13,384 nt of DNA from Chamaesiphon sp. (GTDB lineage: Bacteria; Cyanobacteriota; Cyanobacteriia; Cyanobacteriales; Chamaesiphonaceae). Below, one piece after another: positions 1 to 9,090 of the stretch. The translations under genes and the position numbers were made by a program. Positions within the stretch are counted from its first letter, which is position 1. Every line of letters begins with the position of its first letter. Location of the stretch: NCBI GenBank assembly GCA_026786125.1, contig JAJAYU010000056.1:1-13384 (forward strand). Direction: 5' to 3'. The notes under the pieces are model-generated. The model saw only the letters and a list, made by a program, of their open reading frames with translations. It ran no database searches and had not been told where the DNA came from.

Positions 1-1408
1 CATACACATGGGCAACTTGAAGCAAAATATCCTCACGCAGCACGTTGCCAATTAATTGCAACCCGATCGGCATACCTTTATCATCAAAACCACAAGGGAT
101 ACTAATTCCTGGTAATCCAGCCAGATTAACGGGAATCGTCATCAAGTCCGAAAGATACATGCTCAAAGGATCGGCTGTTTTTTCGCCAGCTTTGAACGCA
201 GTTGTCGGAGCAGTGGGGGTAATCAGAATATCTACTTGACTGAAAGCCGCTTCAAAGTCTTGCTTAATTAAGGTGCGTACTTTTTGTGCCTTGAGATAAT
301 ATGCGTCGTAATAGCCCGCCGAAAGTGCATAAGTACCGAGCATAATTCGGCGTTTGACTTCTGCGCCAAATCCGGCGGCTCTAGTTTTGGTGTACATCGA
401 CATTAAGTTATCTGCTTCAGCACGGAAGCCATATTTCACGCCATCATAGCGAGCTAAATTTGCCGATGCCTCAGAGGGAGCGATCACGTAATAGGTGGGT
501 AAACCGTAGCGGAAACGAGGACAGGAAATCTCTTGAATTTCAGCACCGAGGGCGCGGAAATGTTCGATCGATTGACGCACTGATTCCGCGACTTGTGGAT
601 CCAAACCTTCGCCAAAAGTTTCGGTAATAATCCCGATCTTTAGACCTTTTGGTAAGTCGGGAGTGAGTAACTGAGAGTACTTGGGAGTCTCGACTTTGAG
701 GCTGGTAGAGTCTTTGGGATCGTAACCAACGATCGCTTAGAGTAATATTGCCGCATCCTCAACTGTACGGGCAAATGGGCCGATTTGATCTAGTGATGAC
801 GCATAGGCAACTAGCCCAAATCTCGATACCAGTCCATAGGTCGGTTTTAGCCCCACCACGCCACAAAAAGAGGCAGGTTGACGAATGGAGCCACCAGTAT
901 CAGAACCAAGGGATACAACGCATTCTGACCCTGCTACAGCCGCCGCCGAACCACCGGAAGATCCGCCTGGTACTCGCTCTAGATCCCAAGGATTGGCAGT
1001 GACTTGATAAGCCGAATTTTCGGTGGAGCTGCCCATCGCAAACTCGTCGAGGTTAGTTTTCCCCAGGGATACCGCACCGATGTCTTTGAGTTTCTGGGTG
1101 ACGGTAGACTCATAGGGCGGTACAAATCCTTCAAGTATTTTGGAACCACAGGTAGTCGCAATCCCTTGGGTACACATATTATCTTTGAGAGCGATCGGAA
1201 TTCCAGCCAGGAGTCCAATTTCTTCCCCTGCGGCAATCTTGGCATCTACCAATCGGGCTTGTGCGAGGGCTTGCGTCGGAGTGGTGCAGAGGAAACTACG
1301 GAGTTTGGGTTCTAGTTGCTCTACTCGATTGATCGCCTCTGTGGCGATTTCTACTGCCGATCTTTGTTTCGTAACAAGCTGATTGTGTAAGTCGCGGATG
1401 GATGCCAT
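1..1408 (-). pseudogene. gatA: Glu-tRNA(Gln)/Asp-tRNA(Asn) amidotransferase subunit A, interrupted by an in-frame TAA
   Basis: GatA is the amidase subunit of GatCAB, which releases ammonia from glutamine and helps convert Glu-tRNA(Gln) to Gln-tRNA(Gln) in the cytoplasm. The start is ATG at 1406-1408. The amidase-signature motifs are all present: LKDN with Lys75, PGGSSGGS with Ser150, and GSDTGGS with Ser174, which matches the Lys/cis-Ser/Ser triad of the family. At codon 224 (737-739) the frame reads TAA, followed at once by [13 protein letters not shown]. GatA proteins normally read LLQAIAGYDP here, so one C-to-T change (CAA to TAA) explains it. I translated on to the window edge: 245 more codons are open and family-like, including [16 protein letters not shown] sequence (written [14 protein letters not shown]), [15 protein letters not shown] and [13 protein letters not shown], ending at LLQVAHVY. 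Only about 15 residues lie beyond the window. No ATG or GTG lies just after the TAA, so reinitiation looks unlikely. It may be a true lesion, a recoded codon or a sequencing error. Confidence 0.9.
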
Positions 1409-8350: not shown

Positions 8351-8686
8351 CTATCCTACTGCGTATTCAGTATGCTGTCTTATATAAACAGGATGGAAAG
8401 CCAATACGATTTTATCCTTCGGAATGCCTGCTGCTAATAATTCATCTGTGATCCCATCTTCGGTGCCATCTCTTTGTACCCAAACTTTACCATCTCGTAT
8501 TTCGACATGGATTAAAAAACCATGAATCCGTCTATCGCCATCCCAACCTTCAATTACCAGAAAGAATTGGCTCCGTTCAGCATCAATTACTACTCGCCGA
8601 TTGATGTCACTGTGACTGTAAGTGATTGCAGCATATTCTCGTAAGATTTTTTCAATGATCTCGCTATAATTATTTAGGTTATCCAT
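8351..8686 (-). CDS. xisI: XisI family protein (fdxN element excision controlling factor)
   Basis: At 111 residues this is the normal length for XisI. Recognisable family blocks are YSEIIEKILREYA, NRRVVIDAERSQFFLVIEGWDG, RRIHGFLIHVEIRDGKVWVQRDGTEDGI and the C-terminal GIPKDKIVLAFHPVYIRQHTEYAVG. In heterocystous cyanobacteria, XisH and XisI are needed with the XisF recombinase for excision of the fdxN element, but XisHI pairs are widespread in cyanobacteria with no such element, and their general role is unclear. The start ATG (8684-8686) overlaps the end of xisH by 13 bases, which points to translational coupling and a joint function. There is no recombinase gene in the window. The region has no CGATCG, in contrast to the flanking genes. 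Confidence 0.93.
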   Translation of the reverse strand: MDNLNNYSEIIEKILREYAAITYSHSDINRRVVIDAERSQFFLVIEGWDGDRRIHGFLIHVEIRDGKVWVQRDGTEDGITDELLAAGIPKDKIVLAFHPVYIRQHTEYAVG

Positions 8687-9090
8687 TTAGTAATTTCCTT
8701 GTTTTGGATATTAAAAACAACTAGATTTAGATGATTCTTCCTTATTATCAGTTCACCAATTGCTTCTGAAAATAAATCCATATAAATTGTCTGACTAATT
8801 GCAAGATATAATACCCGATGAGATTTTTGCTCTTCTAATATCTGAGAGTATAGAAGATATTGACCTAGTGCAGTTTCTAATTCACGTACTGGTGAATTAC
8901 CGATAAAGCTCTTGATCTCAACAGCAATTTGAAGTTCTCCTTTGTTTGCTGCCAGCAATTTTCTTGCTCCTAGATCGATATAGACAGATCTACTACCAAT
9001 ACTCAATGTTAGTGGATCTTCAGTGATTGTCCACCCATCTTTCTCTAATGCCGTTCTGACAGTATCGTGGTAAAAATCTTTTGCTGGCAT
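8674..9090 (-). CDS. xisH: XisH family protein, PD-(D/E)XK nuclease-like
   Basis: At 138 residues it has typical XisH length and blocks: MPAKDFYHDTVRTALEKDGW at the start, then YIDLGARKLLAANKGE, IAVEIKSFIG and ALGQYLLY. Asp39 in YIDLGA with Glu58-x-Lys60 in VEIKSF and Gln77 in GQYLLY make a PD-(D/E)XK-type arrangement, so the protein is probably related to restriction endonuclease-fold enzymes; activity here is inferred, not shown. The ATG is at 9088-9090. The stop TAA (8674-8676) lies within xisI, so the two are expressed together. The gene is AT-richer than its neighbours and has no CGATCG. It may be acquired DNA. A nuclease/partner role similar to a toxin-antitoxin or defence pair is possible but unproven. 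Confidence 0.93.
   Translation of the reverse strand: MPAKDFYHDTVRTALEKDGWTITEDPLTLSIGSRSVYIDLGARKLLAANKGELQIAVEIKSFIGNSPVRELETALGQYLLYSQILEEQKSHRVLYLAISQTIYMDLFSEAIGELIIRKNHLNLVVFNIQNKEITKWIT

Follow-up and report, generated by a model that had tools for sequence, protein, structure and literature searches.

An in-frame stop codon in gatA

Near the end of a Chamaesiphon contig, gatA, the gene for subunit A of the Glu-tRNA(Gln)/Asp-tRNA(Asn) amidotransferase, is interrupted by an in-frame TAA, and the locus raises the question of whether this stop belongs to the living organism or to the assembled sequence. The window that we analyzed is the entire contig C56 (13,384 bases) of a draft assembly comprising 2,727,943 bases in 415 contigs, which is 77% complete and 0.88% contaminated; its fragmentation and incompleteness suggest a metagenome assembly.

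The gene lies on the minus strand. Its 5′ part (740..1408) runs for 223 codons from an ATG at 1408 to the in-frame stop at 737..739, where tta on the plus strand reads as TAA on the minus strand and constitutes codon 224. Codons 219 to 229 are GCG GCA ATA TTA CTC TAA GCG ATC GTT GGT TAC, and the 3′ part (2..736, minus strand) continues as an open frame of 245 codons up to the contig edge. In the assembled sequence, gatA is thus not one uninterrupted reading frame. The 223-residue left piece matches positions 2-214 of the gatA model TIGR00132 (length 466; E = 9e-97) and 2-203 of Pfam Amidase, while the 245-residue right piece matches 217-459 (E = 5e-94) and 205-445, respectively, with the stop falling between them. 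Each piece alone scores below the curated TIGR00132 cut-off of 481.1 bits (324.7 and 315.6 bits), whereas the whole protein reaches 657.9 bits when the search passes over the stop. Because both halves match the family so strongly, this is not a chance frame. The best solved relative, 4wj3, matches residues 5-467 of the query.

The original prediction of an in-frame TAA at this position is confirmed in the sequence, with both halves matching the GatA model around it. Its description of gatA as otherwise intact holds for the single-base lesion and the conserved remainder, but not for the gene as a whole, which is incomplete and runs off the contig end. The 3′-terminal part is absent from the window, which holds 468 codons of gatA compared with 482 and 485 residues in the same genus (two genomes measured of four tried).

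Other features of the window were recorded as well. Short tandem-like repeats (tggatggtggatgg and tagggaatag-type runs, on both strands) were seen by eye at 1408-1450 and 2400-2530, in the intergenic regions flanking gatA and a phosphoesterase-like gene. At 8351-9090, a putative XisH/XisI pair of fdxN-element excision factors is encoded by minus-strand frames of 138 and 111 aa that overlap each other.

Codon in the relatives and constraint past the stop

Codon 224 is GAA (Glu) in all eight same-genus genomes examined and GAG in the two same-family genomes. Given this uniform GAA within the genus, the change would most simply be G to T on the coding strand and not the CAA-to-TAA change originally proposed on the view that the family has Gln here. 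Gln is one of many residues at this highly variable position: among the 123 records giving a residue (of 125 compared), in which some genomes may be counted twice, Gln occurs in 27 and Glu in 19, and two of the 123 are the stop of this same sequence, in the window and in its copy. CAA is therefore the wrong base to expect in reads covering 737-739.

None of the eight same-genus genomes has an in-frame stop at codon 224, nor any stop inside its gatA match. The same stop was considered in genome G040, whose gatA match lists two TAA codons, and was rejected: codon 224 is GAA there, and the aligned part contains no stop from residue 17 on.

Compared with that of the nearest relative (G001), gatA is 94.3% identical at the DNA level. 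The 223 codons before the stop carry 32 synonymous and 4 amino-acid codon differences, and the 244 codons after it carry 41 synonymous differences and a single amino-acid difference. Judged from these substitutions, the 3′ part shows no decay and is under full constraint after the stop, and the relaxed constraint past the lesion that marks a pseudogene was not found across these 244 codons. At five bases of gatA, the draft differs where all eight relatives agree; the stop is one of them, and one other alters an amino acid.

Absence of a visible back-up for GatA

The interrupted gene is the sole gatA match in the 77% complete draft, and no second copy was found. Its partner gatB is present without internal stops (C225:1106-2560, 621.3 bits), and no GlnRS scored above the cut-off in the same 77% complete draft. 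The only match to the glnS model, a 108-residue piece at the end of contig C157, was rejected as GlnRS, as the bacterial gltX model fits it far better (182.9 versus 63.4 bits). The search of the genome proposed in the original prediction thus turned up neither a second gatA nor a glnS above the cut-off in the part assembled.

In the seven cyanobacterial genomes tabulated in PMC3927822, GatCAB is present and GlnRS is absent in every case; PMC7541841 describes GatCAB as essential in mycobacteria. Given a single gatA alongside an intact gatB and the lack of a GlnRS above the cut-off, loss of gatA should be lethal, and the lesion still looks lethal, as predicted, after a search of the 77% of the genome in hand. 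The three ways out first offered, namely a second copy, read-through, or an error, form a reasonable set; neither a second gatA nor an ochre-suppressor tRNA was found in this 77% complete draft. Nothing links the polar Chamaesiphon drafts described in PMC10438808 to this window. Among the literature matches listed, "premature stop codon" was not found.

Other interrupted genes and their distance from contig ends

We surveyed 81 contigs including the window (534,552 bases, approximately a fifth of the draft), and six conserved genes besides gatA contain in-frame stops. An RppB-like histidine kinase (L142:637) has a single stop, with pieces that fit its profile at 1-217 and 219-410, and ureC likewise has one (L147:396), with pieces that fit at 250-380 and 382-568. 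An RND adaptor (L142:6040) has a single stop across which a relative aligned with 49% identity, although the family search names the right piece only. Single in-frame stops also interrupt an esterase (L140:6201), with Abhydrolase_2 in both pieces, and a methyltransferase (L143:10940), whose relative is 93% identical. The sixth gene, folK (L213:87-578, on contig C22), has two in-frame stops near its start, no more than about 155 bases from where the contig ends, and the rest fits the HPPK family. Near its stop, ureC (L147:3-959, on contig C103) carries several residues that are presumably unusual for a urease, which would fit either poor assembly of this stretch or decay of the gene. Like gatA, folK is expected to be needed, and the presence of both among the broken genes points to the assembly rather than to real loss.

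The distances to the nearest contig end are 736 bases for gatA, 636 for the kinase, 395 for ureC, 414 for the adaptor, 496 for the esterase, 1476 for the methyltransferase, and 155 for folK. In simulations, the mean of 615 bases compares with 2063 expected (P about 0.0017) and the median of 496 with 1776 expected (P = 0.013), in a test that is post hoc, as the closeness was noticed first and the seven genes were picked partly by eye.

Survey controls

Raw split-frame candidates were no more frequent in this draft (17 over an initial 302 kb and 8 over a further 232 kb, 535 kb in all) than in two related genomes, G004 (26 in 332 kb) and G007 (20, or 24 with slightly looser lengths, in 280 kb). 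A stricter survey by codon score had given an excess (8 here versus 1 in G007, with gatA missed) that vanished when the survey was loosened (17 versus 20). Among the 17 candidates, the pieces of six besides gatA were searched against families (both pieces for four, the left piece for two), and the other 10 were judged by eye. Among the eight candidates of the second sample, only L246 was searched against Pfam, which gave a kinase domain followed by a receiver domain and left it a candidate. The rates are not strictly comparable, as ureC and the esterase were confirmed by family searches, a step not applied to the control genomes.

By tblastn, the draft yielded 8 sites over 125,922 covered bases, compared with 5 over 120,681 in G004 and 1 over 91,029 in G007. 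Five of the eight draft sites were taken by eye as true frames (gatA, the RppB-like kinase, the adaptor, the methyltransferase, and folK), and L126:977 and window positions 2997 and 3132 were dropped by eye. By the same kind of judgment, L269:323 and perhaps L266:1840 in G004 may be real, while the other three G004 sites and the G007 site appeared to be shadow frames or to fall outside the gene. A comparison of aligned frames gave 12 stop codons, four of which are those of gatA, folK (two), and the methyltransferase; the remaining eight were dropped (window 2485, 2488, 2494, 2997, and 3132, L126:977, L242:4383, and L146:9169), with L242:4383 and L146:9169 lying just 5′ of a likely start.

A general pile-up of errors at contig ends was rejected. 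The number of amino-acid codon differences per synonymous one stays flat over five bins of distance from the contig end (0.42 at 0-300 bases, 0.36 at 300-600, 0.49 at 600-900, 0.42 at 900-1500, and 0.45 beyond). An oxidative-damage signature was likewise rejected, with no clear excess of G-to-T over T-to-G changes across the draft (57 versus 47 amino-acid, 136 versus 128 synonymous). C-to-A changes and their reverse are nearly equal (88 versus 86 and 199 versus 199), and the largest imbalance, amino-acid A-to-T over T-to-A (61 versus 40), runs the opposite way among synonymous changes (137 versus 169). Taken together, the flat end ratio, the lack of a clear G-to-T excess, and the raw split-frame counts suggest that the draft consensus is not generally error-ridden, and that the fault, if any, is sporadic.

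A consensus error or rare allele as the probable explanation

Our analysis suggests that the TAA is probably either a sequencing or assembly error or a rare defective allele in the consensus, and that it is not a fixed change in living cells. The consensus of a fragmented draft would contain, 736 bases from a contig end, a base that is erroneous or not representative; within the same account, a rare defective allele may instead have happened to be picked by the assembler. The living population would then read GatA at full length as the normal amidase subunit of GatCAB, and the reads behind 737-739 would be expected to be few or mixed. The fragmented draft, the position of gatA at a contig end, the lack of a back-up, the undecayed 3′ part, and the broken genes near other contig ends together make this account a likely one. 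It is kept short of certainty by the flat end ratio, the lack of a clear G-to-T excess, raw split-frame candidates that are no commoner than in relatives, and the post hoc nature of the end-distance test.

The main rival, which ranks next and which we regard as possible though doubtful, is a very recent nonsense mutation in the sampled strain or cells, present either in a dying or dead lineage or in some genome copies only. Neither widespread consensus error near contig ends nor a clear G-to-T excess was seen, and the undecayed C-terminal half is as expected of a very young change. Many cyanobacteria have several genome copies per cell and can shelter a lethal allele, and such copies could shelter this one. 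On the other hand, gatA has no visible back-up in the draft, and the breakage of several other conserved genes goes beyond what a single young lethal mutation would explain.

Read-through or suppression of the TAA in vivo, yielding full-length GatA from this very sequence, would account for the constraint past the stop in a gene expected to be indispensable. The decoding apparatus in the draft argues against it. None of 27 tRNA matches was seen to have the anticodon UUA of an ochre suppressor, and ARAGORN named none, in a genome of which about a quarter is missing. A partial tRNA at a contig end, not called by ARAGORN, shows CAT in its loop when read by eye, and the anticodon loop of one tRNA on contig C69, unusual in having six bases, contains no UUA. 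TAA is moreover a working stop and the commonest one in this genome, in agreement with the original prediction that it is a true stop: the 81 sampled contigs contain 283 non-overlapping open frames of at least 200 codons, some of which may not be genes, and 130 of these end in TAA, 106 in TAG, and 47 in TGA. Within the window, the corresponding counts are 6 (the gatA stop among them), 3, and 2. With the stop also absent from all eight same-genus relatives, we consider read-through or suppression very unlikely; that the cell carries the TAA and still makes full-length GatA, through an ochre suppressor in the unassembled quarter or through efficient read-through, seems slightly less probable still. 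A real TAA that is read through would make gatA a striking example of an essential gene whose expression depends on nonsense decoding.

As an observation in its own right, the six-base-loop tRNA, which ARAGORN did not name, belongs to a pair of adjacent odd tRNA-like genes (L210, 1499-1649, on contig C69) that perhaps derive from a mobile tRNA array; its neighbor is a tRNA-Ile with anticodon TAT and 36.8% G+C.

Two further accounts are highly improbable. GatA made as separate N-terminal and C-terminal polypeptides that assemble is compatible with two halves that are intact as sequence, but the first ATG, GTG, or TTG lies 44 codons past the stop, which would cost a conserved stretch, and none of the eight same-genus relatives splits the gene. 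A gatA pseudogene superseded by another functional gatA or a GlnRS, encoded in the quarter of the genome that is missing, would fit a draft that is 77% complete, but conflicts with the lack of decay past the stop, with the GatCAB-positive, GlnRS-negative tabulated cyanobacteria, and with the gltX-like identity of the only glnS-model match.

Comparison with known systems

The consensus error or rare allele that we favor carries a caution: when a single stop interrupts an indispensable gene in a fragmented draft, the nearest relatives and the contig geometry should be checked before any biology is inferred. Most likely, the TAA in gatA does not represent a novel mode of decoding.

Both halves of the gene match the family of known GatA subunits (TIGR00132; solved structures 4wj3, 3h0l, and 2df4), from which the sequence here differs by the stop at codon 224 and by the 3′ end missing at the contig end. 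Stop-codon read-through and reassignment are known systems, and gatA resembles them in the constraint that persists past its stop. Unlike in those systems, the stop is kept in none of the eight relatives, TAA is the main stop, and the 77% complete draft showed no suppressor tRNA. Spurious interrupted genes are a general artefact of draft metagenome assemblies. The present case departs from that pattern in that amino-acid changes in this draft are not raised near contig ends, so that such faults are sporadic at most, and it resembles the pattern in its single-base stop, in a constrained and presumably indispensable gene, with a contig end nearby and further conserved genes interrupted elsewhere in the draft.
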